A stretch of DNA of 14,319 nucleotides, from contig JAFGKV010000041.1 in NCBI GenBank assembly GCA_016928395.1, forward strand, positions 1 to 14,319, given 5' to 3'. The position numbers were made by a program, and so were the translations under genes. Positions 2,924-13,619 of the stretch are shown here, in pieces; within the stretch, counting starts at the first letter, position 1, and every line of letters begins with the position of its first letter. The stretch comes from Candidatus Fermentibacterota bacterium. GTDB lineage: Bacteria > JAFGKV01. The notes beneath the pieces were generated by a model. The model saw only the letters and a list, made by a program, of their open reading frames with translations, ran no database searches and was not told the DNA's origin.

Positions 2924-3577
2924 CTATTCCTCGTCGCCGTCGATGGCTCTGTTGGGATCGATCCATTTCACGACCCCGTTCTTTGTTACACTTCTCTCAA
3001 CTGTGATCGGCAGATCAGAGCTCTTGATCACCGCCTCATAGATCGCGTTGCCCATCTTTGATCCGCTATCTCCAGGGTGGATCGTGATGGAATGGTATTC
3101 TGACAACGTGTCCTCGAAAACTTCGTAATATCCAATTTGACCAATCCATCCGCCAAGACGACAATAAGTCCAGAGTCTGACCTGGGTTCCGATCTTCTCA
3201 AGGGAAACAGCCATGGTATGGGCGAAGAATTCCCCATACTTGCGATACTTTCCTGTGGCATTGCCAAGGTATAGAGTAAATTGGCCGCCGGCGTTGCCAA
3301 ATGATCTCATGTCACAGGACAAGGCCATGTCTTGAATACCGTCCGAATTGAAATCGGCAAGCATTCTGAAACGTTCACCGCTGTGGATATCGTCCTTCGC
3401 AACGGCTCTGATCGATGGATCGTCACTCCATTCAAATCCCGTGGCGATCACCGCCGCCAACCCAATGATTGTTGTGGCAAAACCTCTCTTCATTCTCATG
3501 ATCCCAACGGGGCCGCGGGTGAGCCGCATAACACGTATACAGCACTGTAACCTGGTTGAGGTTTTCCTTTGTAGCAT
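2924..3577 (-). CDS. Secreted or anchored FG-GAP/VCBS-like protein, function unknown
   Basis: 217 residues from ATG 3577. A hydrophobic segment (about residues 33-48, [16 protein letters not shown]) after a basic stretch looks like a signal peptide or N-terminal anchor. Residues 68-118 hold a single FG-GAP/VCBS-like unit: [20 protein letters not shown] with the Ca-binding-loop spacing D-x-N-x-D-G-x-x-D, then [18 protein letters not shown]. The rest is not recognisable. The start is uncertain. The strong AAGGAGGAGGTGA lies at about 3587-3600 and fits the long start, but gives a 30-residue n-region. ATGs at 3499 or 3493 would give a normal signal peptide ([10 protein letters not shown]...) with only a weak ribosome binding site. 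The gene ends 80 bp before gpmA. Confidence 0.68.
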
Positions 3578-3735
3578 CTATCATTCACCTCCTCCTTGAC
3601 AAACCGGAGCCGCGTCTTGTGCAGATCCGAATAACACTCACGTTCAGCCTCACAGCGCATCCATCGGGCTCGCCAAGAGAAGGAGTGGTCAGTCTTCAGT
3701 TGTCGGTAGTCAGGTGAGCGCGGGGGAAGCGGAGA

Positions 3736-3905
3736 CGCGAACCCGTGGAAGACCCCCCGCGGTGCGACGGAACTGGCAGCGGAAAGAAGTGGTATGGGAC
3801 GAGAAGCATGAGCGCGAGATTCGATCGGTTCCATCACAGCCCCATTGTGAAGGTCGCTCTTGTAGAGGGATAGGCCGAAGGAAGAGCCGCGGCTCGAACC
3901 TGTCA
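3736..3905. repeat. Diverged direct repeat, copy A
   Basis: By eye this stretch aligns over about 150-165 bases with 4031-4200, at roughly 65-75% identity. Matching anchors, written on the plus strand, include CGACGGAACTGG/CGACGGAACCGG, the GCGCGAGATTCGATCGGTTCCAT region against GCGAGATCCGATTGGCTCCAT, and GGAAGAGCCGCGGCTCG against GGAAGCCGGTGCCTCG. On the minus strand both copies could read ...ERPS... and then ...VMEPI(E/G)SR(A/E)HA, but a one-base indel between these segments breaks a shared frame. This looks like decayed coding sequence or a non-coding element. Boundaries are approximate. Confidence 0.6.
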
Positions 3906-4030
3906 AGGCGCCCAGTCCTCGCTCTATTCGGGGAGTGCTGTCCGACAAGGGTGCCAGCGTGCTTCGCCAGGCCATGAATCGTTATGTGGATGGCCCTTTC
4001 GCTCAGCAACTTGACACTTTGTCTACGTCC

Positions 4031-4200
4031 CTAGACCCGACCAGACACGCCCGTCTCACGACGGAACCGGTAGTGGAGAGACGGCGAATGGTGTGAAAAG
4101 CGTGCTCGCGAGATCCGATTGGCTCCATGACGGCCCCTGGTGATGGTCTCTCTCGGAAGGGGATGCAGCCAAGGAAGCCGGTGCCTCGTGCACGGTCAGG
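4031..4200. repeat. Diverged direct repeat, copy B
   Basis: Partner of the repeat at 3736-3905, in the same orientation about 295 bp away. On the minus strand it can be read as one frame including GAVMEPIGSREHAFHTIRRL and ending at 4003. Its last bases reach within 40 bp of the glycosyltransferase stop at 4240. Many differences from copy A fall at third positions of the MEPI-SR-HA segment (GAA/GAG, CCG/CCA, CAT/CAC), which hints at past coding use, but the upstream indel argues against two intact related proteins. Confidence 0.6.
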
Positions 4201-4239
4201 CACGCGCGGCCGTGCGACGACGGCGTGGTGCGTGGGGAA

Positions 4240-5190
4240 TCAGACTCCCCTCAGAAGCACGTAGTTGTGGAACCCGCCGATCTGGCGACCACGAAGAATG
4301 CGGCGCTCCAGGAAGGTCAGGAATCGGTACTTGGCCCGCTCATGCTTATGAGGCACGCGCCGAGGATCCGGCGATCCCGAGTACTGCAGCCTGTCCCGCC
4401 AGTCCATACGACCGATCATGCCCGCCATGACCTTCGGGTGGGCGCCGGTGAACACCGCAAGGCGATCCAGTGGGCCGTAGTCAAAGGGCCGTTCCTCTTC
4501 CGCGGGGACGCGATCCCGCCAGGCCACGCCACGGTGCAGCGTGGTGAGGGCGCGGCTCTTGCTCGTCATGAGGTGCGGCGGCCGTACCCATCCGTAGTGA
4601 TAGATCTCCGCGTCCACCGCCGCCACCTTGAGCTTGTGATGCCCTTTGGGCTGGCGAGGCCCCTGGTAGAAGTCGAAACGCCGAAAGGACTGGGCGCTCT
4701 GCCATGAGTGAATGTCGGGCCGGTTGCGGATGATCCTGATCTCGTGGGGATACCAGCCATGACTCACGTGGTAGTGCTCGTAGTCACCCCAAAAGTGCGT
4801 GTAGCGGAACAGGAGGCCCTCAACTTCATGCCGACCCAGCAACTCCTGACATCGTTGTTGGATGACCGGCAGATATGTCTCGTGTACGACCTCGTCGGCC
4901 TGGAGGTAAAGGAGCCAGTCTCCCGAGCAGGCGTCTTTGGCGATATCGGTCTGCACCGAGTTGATGATGCCCTTTTCGAAGAGCTTCTCGTCCCACACGG
5001 TATCGATGATGCGAACCTTGTCGCTTTCGATGGCGGCAATGGCGTCCCTGGTGGTATCCTCAGGATCGCCCCTGCCGACTGCTACCACGAACTCGTCGAC
5101 AATCGGAAGCACCGAGAGAATCGATTCAACGACCGGATAGTAGAGCTTGAGCCCGTTTCTTACGAAGGAGAATCCACTTATCTTCATCAT
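4240..5190 (-). CDS. Family 2 (GT-A fold) glycosyltransferase
   Basis: 316 residues. The N-terminus ISGFSFVRNGLKLYYPVVES (4-23) followed by IVDEFVVAVGRGDPEDTT (30-47) is typical of GT2 proteins of the type that add sugars in lipopolysaccharide-core or other surface glycans. The metal/nucleotide-sugar motif appears as WLLYLQADEVVHE (92-104), with QADE in place of the more usual D-x-D/DADE. No membrane segment is seen, so it is probably cytoplasmic or membrane-peripheral. Start: tandem ATGs lie at 5190 and 5187, and AGAGA six bases upstream of 5190 favours it; a further ATG is at 5196. The gene is transcribed divergently from the next glycosyltransferase, with a 136-bp intergenic region between them. 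Confidence 0.88.
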   Translation of the reverse strand: MMKISGFSFVRNGLKLYYPVVESILSVLPIVDEFVVAVGRGDPEDTTRDAIAAIESDKVRIIDTVWDEKLFEKGIINSVQTDIAKDACSGDWLLYLQADEVVHETYLPVIQQRCQELLGRHEVEGLLFRYTHFWGDYEHYHVSHGWYPHEIRIIRNRPDIHSWQSAQSFRRFDFYQGPRQPKGHHKLKVAAVDAEIYHYGWVRPPHLMTSKSRALTTLHRGVAWRDRVPAEEERPFDYGPLDRLAVFTGAHPKVMAGMIGRMDWRDRLQYSGSPDPRRVPHKHERAKYRFLTFLERRILRGRQIGGFHNYVLLRGV

Positions 5191-5326
5191 GGTCATTCTC
5201 TTGGTCAGTATCCACGGAGTCCTATGCGGTCGGACAGGATTCTCCAACTAACCGGGCTTGGGCGCCCCGCGTCAAGAGCAGCCTGACGGCACGTTTCGTC
5301 TTTCCCGGGGAAACGGAGATCAGTGC

Positions 5327-6178
5327 ATGCAGCATGTGAGTGTAGTGATTCCAGTGTACAACCGATGCGATCTCCTGAGGAGAACCCTGCTCTCGCTGGC
5401 AAGCCAGAGCCTGGCGCCCTGCGAAATCATCGTCTCGGATGACGGGTCCGATGAAGATATCTGGGCTACCTTAATGGGGTGCGTTCCCCTGCTGAACTGC
5501 TCACTCGCCTATGTGCGACAGCCTCGGAAGGGCTTCAGGGCCGCACGGACTAGAAACAACGGGATTCACTATGCGAGCCATGACATCCTGGTGTTCGTCG
5601 ACCAAGATATCGTGACGACCCGGGGCTACCTCGCAAGGCTGGCGCAGGGCACCGGACCAGGCACCTTCGCGGTGGGGTATCCGATACGGCTGACCCAGCG
5701 GCAGACGGCATGCGTCACCGATGCGATGATCAGACAAGGTCGATTCGGGGGAGTCGTGACGGCCCAGCAGCGTGGAAAGGTGACGCGCCAGTTCGTGAAG
5801 GACTTCTTCTATCACCACGCACGAAGGCATGGACTCATGCGCGCAGCGAGACCGAAACTCCGCAGCGGCGTGTTTGGGGCCTGGCGAGAGGACATTCTCC
5901 GCGTGGACGGTTTCGACGAGAACTTCGAAGGGTGGGGCAACGAGGACGACGACCTTGGTCGGAGGCTGTACGCCTCTGGAGTACGGGGCAGGAACGTGTG
6001 CTTCCGCGAATTTCCTCTTCATCTCTACCACGTGCCGCACCACAATGGTGGGTTCCGGGCGAATCAGGCCTTTGCTCAGGAGCGAATCCCCCGCATCCTC
6101 TCTGGAGAGGTACGCGCGTCCAGGGGCTTGAGCAGTACCACTCCCGAAGAGCGTCCCAACGCAACGTGGCTGCGCTAA
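5327..6178 (+). CDS. Family 2 glycosyltransferase with Glyco_transf_7C-like C-terminus
   Basis: 283 residues. The GT2 start VSVVIPVYNRCDLLRRTLLS (4-23), the nucleotide-binding IIVSDDGSDED (34-44), the metal motif in LVFVDQDIVT (88-97, DQD) and the C-terminal acceptor-side motif GAWREDILRVDGFDENF plus EGWGNEDDDLGRRL (184-214) show a GT-A enzyme of the type with an N-terminal GT2 and a C-terminal galactosyltransferase-like (7C) region. I chose ATG 5327 because GGAGATC lies about 8 nt upstream and the family core starts right after it. The open frame from 5258 would add 23 uncharacteristic residues. Probably acts in surface polysaccharide synthesis with the GT4 gene downstream. Confidence 0.92.
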   Translation: MQHVSVVIPVYNRCDLLRRTLLSLASQSLAPCEIIVSDDGSDEDIWATLMGCVPLLNCSLAYVRQPRKGFRAARTRNNGIHYASHDILVFVDQDIVTTRGYLARLAQGTGPGTFAVGYPIRLTQRQTACVTDAMIRQGRFGGVVTAQQRGKVTRQFVKDFFYHHARRHGLMRAARPKLRSGVFGAWREDILRVDGFDENFEGWGNEDDDLGRRLYASGVRGRNVCFREFPLHLYHVPHHNGGFRANQAFAQERIPRILSGEVRASRGLSSTTPEERPNATWLR

Positions 6179-6604
6179 GGCGTCTGCCTCGCGCAGGAAT
6201 GGAAGTAACTGCGACGTGGGGCGTGTCTAGTCAATCAGCTCAAACCCTACGGGGCCGCATATGTCAGCGCAGGCCGGGCGTTCGGAAACGCCCCGAGTTG
6301 CCGCCGTGGGAGATACACCAGACGGTCACGGCGCCGAACGAGGCTCCCCCGCACCGCAGAGACAATCCGCCCTGCACAGCGTATGACCGTACACTGCGCT
6401 GCCCTCACGCCGGCAAGAGCGCGCCGCGCCATAATCCTTCATTGACAGGGGCCAGCCTAAAGACGAGGTTCACGTGGTGTCGTCAGAGGGGAACTCTGCG
6501 AGGGAAAGCGGTTAGTGACTATGGGAGTTCCTCGACAAGGCGCGCCCATTGCAGCAGGGCGCATGCCTGGGCCACCTGGTGGCTACCATGAACAAGGAGC
6601 ATAC
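6179..6604. other. Intergenic stretch, no gene recognised
   Basis: 426 bases between two glycosyltransferase genes on the same strand. The open frame that runs through from 5710 to 6591 is an Arg/Pro-rich shadow of the upstream gene. The only structure seen is a 7-bp hairpin at 6276-6293. TTGACA at 6443-6448 could be a -35 element for the GT4 gene, but no good -10 follows at 17 bp. Confidence 0.5.
6276..6293. other. Hairpin (GGGCGTT-CGGA-AACGCCC)
   Basis: A perfect 7-bp stem with a 4-base loop, about 100 bp after the glycosyltransferase stop. No T-run follows, so it is not a standard intrinsic terminator. It may protect the 3' end of the mRNA or be chance. Confidence 0.35.
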
Positions 6605-7738
6605 GTGACCGGCCTTAGCCTGCTCTTCATCAACTCCGCCAAGCGAGCCTCCGGGGGAGAATACTGGATGGCGCAGGTGGGGGGGGAGTTCGTACGAAGA
6701 GGCCACCGGGTAACCTTGGTCTGCCGCCCGTTCCGTCCGTGGGCGGAGCACGCGCGGGATTTGGGCGTGACAGTCTATGAGCATGGGCTCCGCGGCGACA
6801 TCAATATGAACGCGGTGGTGCGCCTTGGATTGATCATGCTGCGGCAACGAGTAGAACTGGTCTGCACGGTATTCGAACGGGAAGCTCGTTTGGCGGGAAT
6901 GGCGAAGCGCTTCTTCCCATCCGTTTCCTTGGTTCAGCGCAAAGTCGTTCCCCGGATCAAGAACCGCCTCCAGTACCGGGCAAGTTATCGCTACCTCGTC
7001 GACAAGATCCTCGCGTCCAGCCACAGCATAGAATCGCAGCTCACGCGGTACCCGTGGCTGTCGCCCGGCATGGTCGAGGTCGTTCCCAACGGCATCGACC
7101 TGACGCCGTTCACTTCCTTCAACCCGTCACGTCATGTGGCGAAACGGCTTGGGATCCCGCGCGGGAGGGTAATCGTTGGGTCGGTTGCCGACCTTGTGCC
7201 CTCCAAGGGGCACGAGATGCTCCTCGATTCCCTGCCCAAGCTCCTTCTGCTGGCACCGCAAGTTCATCTGCTGCTAGTCGGAGAGGGACTGATGCGGAGA
7301 CGTCTTGAGCGGAAGAGCGAGGAGATGGGCCTTGCGGATCGCGTTACCTTCGCGGGATTCCGGCGGGACATTCCCGATGTTCTGCGCAACGTCGATGTAT
7401 TTCTACTCCCCTCACGCTCGGAAGGGGCTTCACTGGCAGTACTGGAAGCCATGGCGGCGGCCCGCCCTGTGGTAGTCAGCGATGTGGGCGGAAACTCGGA
7501 ACTGGTGATCCACGGCATCAATGGATTCCTCTTTCCCTTGGATGATCCGCTCATGATGATCCAGCACGTGGCCCTTCTTGCGGCCAACCCTCGCCTGCGC
7601 AAGAGGATGGGGACTGAGGGCAGACGATGGGCCGAGCGCGAGTTCACCCTAGACAAGATGATCGACAAGGTCGAGACCATCTTCCTCTCAACTGTCGAAG
7701 GCAAGCGAAAGGGAAGAGGTCTGCGGCATCCACAATGA
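6605..7738 (+). CDS. GT-B fold glycosyltransferase, family 4
   Basis: 377 residues, the usual GT4 size. The N-terminal acceptor domain has SAKRASGGEYWMAQVGGEFVRRGHRVTLV (11-39). The linker PNGIDLTPF (161-169) leads to the donor domain with VGSVADLVPSKGHEMLLDSL (191-210), HLLLVGEGLMRRRLE (221-235) and the EX7E motif in SEGASLAVLEAMAAARPVVVSDVGG (272-296; E273 and E281). It transfers a sugar from a nucleotide donor, probably onto a lipid-linked or surface glycan. I chose the GTG at 6605: it has AAGGAG five bases upstream and starts directly at the first beta strand. Frames from 6515 (GTG) or 6521 (ATG) would add ~30 Gly/Pro-rich residues without a clear ribosome binding site. Confidence 0.93.
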   Translation: MTGLSLLFINSAKRASGGEYWMAQVGGEFVRRGHRVTLVCRPFRPWAEHARDLGVTVYEHGLRGDINMNAVVRLGLIMLRQRVELVCTVFEREARLAGMAKRFFPSVSLVQRKVVPRIKNRLQYRASYRYLVDKILASSHSIESQLTRYPWLSPGMVEVVPNGIDLTPFTSFNPSRHVAKRLGIPRGRVIVGSVADLVPSKGHEMLLDSLPKLLLLAPQVHLLLVGEGLMRRRLERKSEEMGLADRVTFAGFRRDIPDVLRNVDVFLLPSRSEGASLAVLEAMAAARPVVVSDVGGNSELVIHGINGFLFPLDDPLMMIQHVALLAANPRLRKRMGTEGRRWAEREFTLDKMIDKVETIFLSTVEGKRKGRGLRHPQ

Positions 7739-10715: not shown

Positions 10716-10914
10716 CCCCTCCCGAACCTCGGTGCCGATTCCACGGACCACTCTGATTTCTTGCCAATGAGGGGCCCTTCGAAAGTCAGGCATGCACCCG
10801 CCGCGGAAGGCCGGGAGATTCCTGCTGGAACACCCGGCTGTGAAACGATCCTGCGGTGCCAAGTGCCCGCCGAAGGCTCAGCGGCGTGCATCCCTGCATA
10901 TAGAGGAGATTGTG

Positions 10915-12117
10915 ATGACCTCAAGAGATGCCATGGCCATCGAAGAAGCGTATGGCGCCCACAACTATCACCCCATTCCCGTGGTGCTGACCAGAGGCGA
11001 GGGTGTATGGGTGTGGGATGTGGAGGACATGCGGTATCTGGATATGCTCAGCGCATATTCCGCTCATAATCTTGGCCACGCCCATCCAGGAGTCCTGGCC
11101 GTTGCCCATCGTCAATTGGAACGGCTCACGCTCACCTCCCGGGCTTTCCACAATGACCTTCTGGGGATTTTCTGCCGCCGGCTGGCGGAGTTCTGCGGGT
11201 TGGAGATGGTTCTACCCATGAACACCGGCGCTGAAGCAGTGGAAACCGCCATCAAGACCGCACGAAAATGGGGATATCAGGTCAAAGGCGTCGAGCAGGA
11301 GAAGGCGGAGATCATCGTCTGTTGTGAGAATTTCCACGGCCGTACCACGACCATCATCAGCTTCTCCACGGACCCGGTAGCCCGCAATGACTACGGCCCC
11401 TACACGCCGGGCTTCACCATCATCCCCTTCGGCAACGCGGCAGCCCTCGAAGAGGCGATCACGCCCAATACCGTCGCCTTCCTTGTGGAACCGATTCAGG
11501 GTGAGGCCGGAGTCAAGGTGCCGCCCGACGGGTATCTGAGTGCGGCCCGTCAGATTTGCACCCGCCACAATGTCCTGCTGGTTCTCGACGAGGTGCAGAC
11601 CGGATTCTGCAGAACAGGTAAACGCTTCTGTCACCACTACGAGGATGCGACGCCCGACATTTTGGTCTTGGGCAAGGCTCTCGGTGGCGGTGTGATGCCG
11701 GTCTCAGCCGTGGTATCACGGCGCGACATCTTGAGCGTCTTCAAGCCCGGGGAGCACGGTTCAACCTTTGGCGGAAACCCCCTGGCATGCGCCATTGCCA
11801 TGGCCGCCCTCGATGCCCTCGAGGATCCAGCGCTGCTGGCCAATGCCGCGCGCCAGGGCGAGCGATTCCGCTCCACCCTTCGGAGCATCGACAATCCCGT
11901 CGTACGCGAAGTGCGGGGCAGGGGGCTTCTCAACGCCATCGAGCTCGACGCCCACAAGGCATCCGGCAGGAAGGTGAGCGAGGCCCTGCAGGCCCGGGGA
12001 GTGTTGGCCAAGGAGACCCATCAGAACATCATTCGTTTCGCGCCACCCTTGATCATCGATGACGACGAGATGAGCTGGGCATTGGAGCGGATCATCGCAG
12101 TGATTCGATCGCTATAG
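10915..12117 (+). CDS. rocD: Ornithine-aminotransferase-like class III PLP enzyme
   Basis: 400 residues. The N-terminus [20 protein letters not shown] (11-30) and [20 protein letters not shown] (41-60) closely match the ornithine delta-aminotransferase signature (GAHNYHPLPV...SAVNQGHxHP), as does [19 protein letters not shown] (103-121). PLP residues are intact: FHGRTT (140-145), D225 in [14 protein letters not shown] and catalytic K254 in [18 protein letters not shown] (283-290) closes the site. The family converts ornithine to glutamate semialdehyde; other omega-amino substrates are possible. ATG 10915 follows AGAGGAG at 7 nt; the open frame to 10792 is not part of the protein. The stop is 11 bp before the radical SAM gene, implying one transcript. 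Confidence 0.88.
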
Positions 12118-12128
12118 AGGCACGGTTC

Positions 12129-13208
12129 GTGACCTTTGACGACCACGGTGTCGGTCCGCATGCGCTCATGGTGCAGCGCTCATCCCGTGGCTTCGTGCCG
12201 CTCACGGCCATCCTGGAACTTACTCACCGATGCAATGAGCGTTGTGTCCATTGCTACGTGATACAACCGCGGGGAAAGCCTCCCGAACTTACCACGGGCC
12301 AATGGAAGGATATCCTCGGGCAGCTCGCCGCGTCGGGAACCATCGAGGTCACCTTCAGCGGCGGTGAAGCCTTCCTCCGGTCCGACTTGTTCGAGATCCT
12401 GGAGGAGGCTCGCCGGCTGAACTTCTCCATTAAGCTCTCGACCAATGCCACCCTGGTGGGCTCTGAGGAAGCGGCACGGCTGAGCGAGCTGAAGCCGTGG
12501 GAAATAGGCGTGAGCCTCTATGCGGCCGATCCTGCCGTCCATGAAGCCATCACTAGACTGCCCGGCAGTTTCCACCGCACTGTGGCGGGTATCTCCGCCA
12601 TGGTCGGCCAGGGAATGCGAGTGCGGATACGCAGCGTGCTCATGCAGGAGAATCTTGGCCAGGAAGAGGCACTTGAGGCCTTGGCGCTCCGGCTCGGCGC
12701 ATCGTTCTCTCAAGATCCCTTGCTGACACCGCGCAGCGATGGGTCACTGGATAATCTGCTCCACCGGCTCACGCCTCAGCAGTTGCGCCGATCCCTGGAG
12801 GCCGATGCACAGCGCCTCCTGGGCGAGGATGACCCCGCCCGGTGGGATGAGGTCCGCCAGGACAAGCTGCAAAGCTTCATGTGCAAGGCGGGCATCAACT
12901 TCGTGTCCATCGGCCCCGAGGGGCAGGTGCTGCCATGCGTGCAGTTTCAGCAGATTGCGGGCAATGTATCGGAAAGACCCTTCGCGGAGATCTGGAAAAC
13001 CTCGCCGGTGTTCCGTCGCCTTCGCGCAACTGTGAACGCCGACCTCGATACGTGCCGTGACTGCGAGCTTTCACCGTTGTGCTTCCGCTGCCCGGGAGAG
13101 GCGCTTCTCTCCAACGGCGACGCCTTCGGGCCATCGACCTATGCGTGCATGCGCGCAGGCTTCCTGAACGAGCTCAGGGCGTCCCGAAGAGGCTTTCCGG
13201 AGCGATAG
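12129..13208 (+). CDS. Radical SAM/SPASM protein, probable RiPP maturase
   Basis: 359 residues from GTG 12129 (AGAGG 8 nt upstream, 11 bp after the aminotransferase). The SAM-cluster motif is LTHRCNERCVHCYV (C35-x3-C39-x2-C42), then FSGGEAF (77-82). The C-terminal SPASM domain has C252, IGPEGQVLPC (C270), C309-x2-C312-x5-C318-x2-C321 and C340: seven cysteines, enough for two auxiliary [4Fe-4S] clusters. The usual spacing of the last pair is x3, here x2. SPASM enzymes mature peptides (sactipeptides, PQQ, mycofactocin) or cofactors (NirJ, heme d1). There is no N-terminal PqqD-like recognition domain. The peptide gene 116 bp downstream is the likely substrate. NirJ/AhbD-type tetrapyrrole chemistry is the main alternative, but no heme-pathway neighbours are present. 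Confidence 0.92.
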   Translation: MTFDDHGVGPHALMVQRSSRGFVPLTAILELTHRCNERCVHCYVIQPRGKPPELTTGQWKDILGQLAASGTIEVTFSGGEAFLRSDLFEILEEARRLNFSIKLSTNATLVGSEEAARLSELKPWEIGVSLYAADPAVHEAITRLPGSFHRTVAGISAMVGQGMRVRIRSVLMQENLGQEEALEALALRLGASFSQDPLLTPRSDGSLDNLLHRLTPQQLRRSLEADAQRLLGEDDPARWDEVRQDKLQSFMCKAGINFVSIGPEGQVLPCVQFQQIAGNVSERPFAEIWKTSPVFRRLRATVNADLDTCRDCELSPLCFRCPGEALLSNGDAFGPSTYACMRAGFLNELRASRRGFPER

Positions 13209-13230
13209 ATGAGGGTGCGCCTTTTTTTTC

Positions 13231-13259
13231 TTGACACCCATGCGATACGTTCGTACTCT
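13231..13259 (+). promoter_or_regulatory. Promoter of the precursor-peptide gene
   Basis: A consensus -35 TTGACA (13231-13236), then a 17-bp spacer and TACTCT (13254-13259, 3/6 match). A T8 tract at 13222-13229 directly upstream could act as an UP-like element. The leader would be about 60 bases to the ATG at 13325. The element suggests that the peptide is transcribed separately from, and more strongly than, the modifying-enzyme genes. Confidence 0.6.
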
Positions 13260-13324
13260 TGTGCCGGTTCTGTATGTAGGTCTATTCCCTACTGCGATGT
13301 TCTCTACTCGTGGAGGTGTACCAA

Positions 13325-13567
13325 ATGAAGAAGGCGTATCGGAAGCCCTCGATCTTCTCCGAGGCGACTTTTGAGACTTCGGCGCTGGCATGCGGCAAGT
13401 CCACTGCCACCCCGTATGGCTACATCTGGACGGTGACCGGCCATCACACCGGCTCCAGCCACAGCCCCGGCACCGGCTCGGGCTGGGTTTCCAGTTCGGC
13501 AAGTTACTCTGACGGCGCGTACTGCGGCTATAGCGACGTCCAGCCGAACAATATGTTCGCCTCCTAA
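13325..13567 (+). CDS. Putative RiPP precursor peptide (80 residues)
   Basis: Starts at ATG 13325 with GGAGGTG 8 nt upstream. Residues 1-22 are leader-like: MKKAYRKPSI-F-S-EATFETSALA, with a K-x-Y-x-x-P element like those bound by RiPP recognition elements, followed by an acidic FET-ALACGK segment. From C23 on the peptide changes character: it has no Arg, only K25, and is rich in Gly, Ser, Thr, Tyr, His and Trp (YGYIWTVTGHHTGSSHS, GTGSGWVSSSASYSDGAY), with a second cysteine C67 and the end NNMFAS. It has no membrane segment. It lies directly after a radical SAM/SPASM gene and before a strong terminator. The modification type, cleavage site and activity cannot be read from the sequence. Translation of the frame from 13310 would add five residues and is less likely. 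Confidence 0.82.
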   Translation: MKKAYRKPSIFSEATFETSALACGKSTATPYGYIWTVTGHHTGSSHSPGTGSGWVSSSASYSDGAYCGYSDVQPNNMFAS

Positions 13568-13587
13568 GACTAGAGCAGAGTTTTAAG

Positions 13588-13619
13588 CCGGGGCTGCGGC
13601 TTTCGCAGCCCCGGTTTTT
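13588..13619 (+). terminator. Rho-independent terminator after the precursor gene
   Basis: A perfect 11-bp GC-rich stem CCGGGGCTGCG / CGCAGCCCCGG with a 5-base loop (GCTTT), followed by TTTTT. It lies 20 bp after the peptide stop codon. The preceding TTTTAA also makes weak termination in the opposite direction possible, for the metH-like gene. Confidence 0.95.

Follow-up and report, generated by a model that had tools for sequence, protein, structure and literature searches.

A candidate radical SAM RiPP family with a conserved C-terminal serine and a linked HprK-like kinase in several bacterial phyla

The window analyzed here, the whole stretch of 14,319 nucleotides from a Candidatus Fermentibacterota genome, contains a radical SAM gene followed by a short open reading frame. 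This raises the question whether the small gene encodes the substrate of the enzyme and which modifications such a peptide would receive. An earlier note on this DNA had read the region as a possible RiPP locus composed of a transaminase, a maturase and a precursor. The order of the genes was confirmed: an ornithine aminotransferase (OAT)-type gene is followed 11 bp downstream by the gene of a radical SAM protein with a seven-cysteine SPASM domain (rSAM1), and then by the gene of an 80-residue peptide (Table 1).

Table 1. Features of the cassette and of the peptide gene, as positions in the window
Feature	Position	Strand	Basis
OAT-type PLP enzyme, 400 aa	10915..12117	+	Co-directional with the maturase; TIGR01885
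Radical SAM/SPASM maturase rSAM1 (putative), 359 aa, GTG start	12129..13208	+	PF04055, PF13186; seven SPASM Cys
Peptide-gene promoter TTGACA-17 bp-TACTCT	13231..13259 (TTGACA 13231-13236; TACTCT 13254-13259)	+	Recurring hexamers
Ribosome-binding site GGAGG	13312..13316	+	Sequence
Precursor peptide gene (putative), 80 aa, ATG start	13325..13567	+	dN/dS; homologues in G001 and G002
Leader MKKAYRKPSIFSEATFETSALACGK with YxxPx[IV] and FETxALxC motifs	13325..13399	+	Alignment of 18 leaders
Core, residues 26-80, Gly/Ser/His/Tyr-rich, with Cys67	13400..13564	+	Core dN/dS; core Cys in 40/40 family members
C-terminal Ser codon, proposed phosphorylation site	13562..13564	+	Ser at the end of 37/40 family members, Thr in 2
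Intrinsic terminator hairpin	13586..13619	+	Fold z -4.1

The peptide gene is truly coding and strongly conserved. A comparison of the window copy with three homologues gave dN/dS values of 0.05-0.10, leader and core alike (core 0.06-0.10), and therefore this gene represents a real protein under purifying selection and not a chance open reading frame. In an alignment of 18 leaders, the positions Y, P, E, A, L and C are invariant. The claim that the gene has its own promoter and terminator was borne out as well. TTGACA and TACTCT are also present upstream of the copy in locus L009, the L010 version being TTGATA; in a generic promoter scan, the promoter fell below the sigma-70 consensus threshold. 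The terminator was missed by a simple terminator scan, while a 66-nt fold of -31.8 kcal/mol (z -4.1) is predicted, and hairpins are also found 3' of the last copy in L009 and of most orphan precursors described below.

The enzyme rSAM1 matches PF04055 (79.2 bits) and PF13186 (42.0 bits), both over cut-off. It carries the CxxxCxxC motif at C35, C39 and C42 and exactly seven SPASM cysteines (C252, C270, C309, C312, C318, C321 and C340), and orthologues are present in L009 (78%) and L010 (61%). It stays below the curated cut-off for all NCBIfam equivalogs, i.e., mycofactocin, PQQ, NirJ/AhbD and SynChlorMet. In a tree of radical SAM enzymes, it falls within a supported set of 29 mostly kinase- and PqqD-linked homologues, within which its sister is not resolved. 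An AlphaFold2 model from a three-row alignment had a mean pLDDT of 48, too low for use.

The earlier note had proposed to check whether homologues of the enzyme and of the peptide co-occur. Here, a precursor profile and a radical SAM profile were searched separately in 386 relatives. The cassette is present in all three genomes of the phylum examined (G000, G001 and G002), and of eight leader-positive genomes outside the phylum five are also rSAM-positive, compared to 17 of all 383 outsiders. Furthermore, the family was collected with a profile of the leader alone, yielding 40 distinct peptides from several phyla. Twelve of the peptides found by this profile belong to two other phyla, one of them (G087) being already known and part of the profile; ten of the twelve lie beside a homologous radical SAM gene, at nine of these together with PqqD. 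The co-occurrence test was therefore passed, which supports the idea that the peptide is the substrate of the maturase. Taken as a whole, the reading of the peptide as a RiPP precursor modified by rSAM1 is held with good, though not full, confidence.

The same linkage was observed directly in 26 tabulated loci outside the phylum, several of which are restricted by contig ends. Within 5 kb of the radical SAM gene, 22 loci contain a kinase, 21 PqqD, 14 an NTP_transf_5 protein and 13 a leader peptide, and four more peptides (L078, L080, L085 and L090) were seen by directed inspection. In L075 (G087), the genes are contiguous: kinase (3502-4524), PqqD (4517-4807), peptide (4820-4987), radical SAM enzyme (5000-6109) and NTP_transf_5 protein (6125-7285).

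Some further observations concern the wider family. The 3.0 Mb genome G106 contains ten paralogous leader peptides on contigs C6, C16, C18, C70, C90, C100 and C106, most of them with YYAKDYEGC-type cores; in the 11 kb examined around its closest radical SAM gene (C99), no leader peptide, PqqD or kinase was detected. In L074 (219-1862) and L088 (1819-3243), the NTP_transf_5 protein has an N-terminal signal-peptidase-like (Peptidase_S24) part and might act as a leader peptidase. Glycosyltransferase-like genes are found upstream of the cassette in the window (4240-7738), and the loci L082, L088 and L133 are surrounded by genes for polysaccharide export, O-antigen ligase or glycosyltransferases.

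The end of the peptide is nearly invariant. The last residue of the 40 leader-bearing peptides is Ser in 37, Thr in two and Gly in one case, the residue preceding the terminal Ser not being conserved; among the open reading frames of the same loci, 8.5-10.8% end with Ser. Since the 40 peptides are related and not independent, representing about eight lineages by estimate, the naive binomial value was not used as a probability. A Ser end in even seven of these eight lineages, the lineage count being an estimate, would still be improbable at the background rate.

In lasso peptides, the invariant C-terminal Ser is phosphorylated by the kinase PadeK (paeninodin), and a hexose is attached to it by PsmN (PMC9266682). 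By profile, the kinase and the nucleotidyltransferase of the loci belong to such lasso-tailoring kinds, the likeness to PadeK and PsmN being one of family only. Most of the kinases score highest with the NCBIfam model ScmC, and the HprK/ScmC matches are below cut-off (24-44 of 125 bits for ScmC). A paeninodin-type context was found, in which a conserved C-terminal Ser occurs together with a linked HprK-like kinase (22 of 26 outside loci). By analogy, phosphorylation of the window peptide at its C-terminal Ser appears slightly favored.

In the home phylum, these components are dispersed. G001 contains two precursors in tandem, and five orphan precursors with the same leader and another core (GH..GS..., SHTPGT in most) are located elsewhere (G000:C53, G001:C44, G001:C379, G002:C4 and G002:C105). 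Each of the three genomes also encodes a paralogous enzyme, rSAM2 (~43% identical), next to a PqqD protein. In other phyla PqqD is adjacent to the radical SAM gene; here, it was found only away from the cassette, beside rSAM2. Since G002 has one PqqD in total, rSAM1 of this genome, if RRE-dependent, must use that PqqD in trans. A kinase homologue (188 bits) is located on G000:C53, about 1 kb from an orphan precursor and not beside the window precursor. Its residues His119, Lys140 and Asp155 are conserved across the kinase set, the Asp being followed by Glu in comparison to the published motif His-Lys-Asp-Asp. Apart from this, further PqqD-like and HprK-like loci exist in the phylum, namely L091 (G000:C329), L096 (G001:C222) and L095 (G001:C279); L091 and L096 include SPASM-type enzymes, and L096 also NTP_transf_5. 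These apparently represent a system separate from the window cassette.

A mechanism can be proposed from these data. The leader motif YxxPx[IV] would be bound by a PqqD-type recognition protein, encoded in trans on contig C3 beside the paralogous maturase; such recognition by an RRE would resemble that of lasso peptide leaders, which carry the motif YxxPxL (PMC6784204). The neighboring rSAM1 would then modify the core, most simply via a link involving the core Cys, although Cys-based radical chemistry on the window peptide is proposed tentatively, a little short of an even chance. The HprK-like kinase on contig C53, beside the orphan precursor, would phosphorylate the C-terminal Ser, so that the window peptide would be served by a PqqD and a kinase both acting in trans. 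The complete picture would be a radical SAM RiPP class spanning several phyla, whose members are modified in the core and carry a phosphate, perhaps also a sugar, on the conserved C-terminal Ser, a single RRE and a single kinase acting in this phylum on precursors scattered over the genome; it is regarded as evenly balanced between right and wrong. Counting against the proposed mechanism, PqqD, kinase, leader peptidase and exporter are all missing from the window cassette, the core of 55 aa is long compared to the relatives, and the home-phylum kinase was found in G000 only, G001 and G002 having been inspected in part.

A simpler product would be a RiPP of the sactipeptide or ranthipeptide type that is only cross-linked, with thioethers formed via the core Cys and with the kinase and the C-terminal Ser being irrelevant to the window peptide. 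The earlier note had called the peptide not sactipeptide-like due to its two Cys. This is unsafe, because no member of the family has fewer than two Cys and 40/40 leader-bearing peptides contain a Cys in the core, which speaks for cross-linking. Similar to SkfB, StsB and SCIFF systems, a SPASM enzyme is combined with a short Cys-containing precursor; SkfB is the second solved-structure match of rSAM1, the model of the sactipeptide maturase StsB reaches 97.9 bits, and the L079 peptide weakly resembles StsA. Nevertheless, a family-level match to these systems is absent and the window family has few Cys. Thioether chemistry cannot be read from a sequence, and the near-invariant C-terminal Ser and the linked kinase would be left unexplained, so that an only cross-linked product is considered rather unlikely.

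Alternatively, the C-terminus itself could be the site of radical chemistry. Here, rSAM1 would convert the C-terminal Ser into an aldehyde by oxidative decarboxylation, comparable to MftC acting on a C-terminal Tyr, and the OAT-like enzyme would aminate this aldehyde to a daptide-like end. MftC and AhbD, both decarboxylating enzymes, are among the closest NCBIfam models of rSAM1, and Ser/Thr is conserved at the C-terminus. The amine of daptides is made from a C-terminal Thr by a class III transaminase (PMC10036551, PMC12670281). The daptides thus have in common with the window locus a hydroxy amino acid conserved at the C-terminus and a class III transaminase nearby. In contrast to these, the window peptide ends with Ser and not Thr, the transaminase is a canonical OAT, and Pfam and NCBIfam scans recognized no MpaB/MpaC-type decarboxylase or methyltransferase in the cassette.

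The transaminase is clearly above the TIGR01885 cut-off (549.9 vs 378.4 bits), and its top solved-structure matches are ornithine aminotransferases. In an alignment with human OAT, the residues corresponding to Y55, Y85, R180, E235, K292 and R413, which we take to be the active-site positions, are present. At E<=1e-30, G000 and G002 each contain a single such protein. An in-frame ATG at 10792, upstream of its start, has no counterpart in the relatives. The gap between the OAT and radical SAM genes amounts to 11, 9 and 0 bp in the three phylum genomes; since synteny in L010 extends to DinB and a glycosyltransferase, the conserved neighborhood by itself says little about a role of OAT in maturation. 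Because family score and aligned active site are canonical and OAT is not among the conserved neighbors noted in the loci outside the phylum, the enzyme is probably an ordinary ornithine aminotransferase with a housekeeping function, and a mere neighbor. Its inclusion in the RiPP locus by the earlier note was therefore given up, and a function as tailoring enzyme was judged unlikely. Furthermore, the HprK-like kinase is a simpler reason for the C-terminal Ser; decarboxylation, the first reading considered, was lowered because this kinase was found, and is now regarded as very improbable.

That rSAM1 acts on a small molecule, as the heme-type enzymes NirJ2 and AhbD do, and the peptide is unrelated is hardly credible, since these top NCBIfam scores (137 and 132 bits), which would favor it, are far under the 500-bit cut-offs, no tetrapyrrole genes were recognized nearby and the recurrence of the peptide-rSAM-PqqD-kinase linkage across phyla argues strongly against it; by scores and gene context, a heme-type NirJ/AhbD function was rejected.

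Among the known systems, the RiPP reading with a phosphorylated C-terminus has its closest counterparts in the phosphorylated or glycosylated lasso peptides paeninodin (PadeK) and pseudomycoidin (PsmK, PsmN). Shared features are the C-terminal Ser, the HprK-like kinase, the nucleotidyltransferase (in relatives), the PqqD-type RRE (away from the cassette in the home phylum) and the YxxPx[ILV] leader motif. In contrast to these, a SPASM radical SAM enzyme replaces the B2 peptidase and the C cyclase, the core is long and Gly/Ser/His-rich, and the home kinase is encoded in trans. Neither a lasso B2 peptidase nor an asparagine-synthetase-like C cyclase was found among the window proteins or the L075 neighbors scanned. 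The SynChlorMet system (TIGR04249-04251: ScmC, ScmE and ScmF) shares ScmC-like kinases and, with ScmE and ScmF, SPASM radical SAM proteins, but all matches are far below cut-off (radical SAM enzyme 110 of 400 bits, kinases 24-44 of 125). Mycofactocin MftC and PQQ PqqE likewise represent SPASM enzymes that modify a short peptide together with a PqqD-type partner; here, the scores are 132 of 265 and 118 of 381 bits, respectively, and the precursors are unrelated.

The combination is a new arrangement of known RiPP logic and not a new kind. The peptide family has apparently not been described before, no description being found in the literature searched, which left most subscription journals out of reach. 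As a rule, a distinction is made between radical SAM RiPPs and phosphorylated lasso peptides as separate classes. In the present family, a lasso-like leader motif, a recognition protein and a kinase for the C-terminal Ser appear to be paired with a radical SAM enzyme instead of a lasso cyclase, in several phyla known mostly through metagenome-assembled genomes. Ten representative precursors were compared with the NCBIfam and Pfam models without any match reaching the cut-off, and therefore annotation pipelines would miss such precursors. The conserved C-terminus offers a direct and testable handle on the function of the family.
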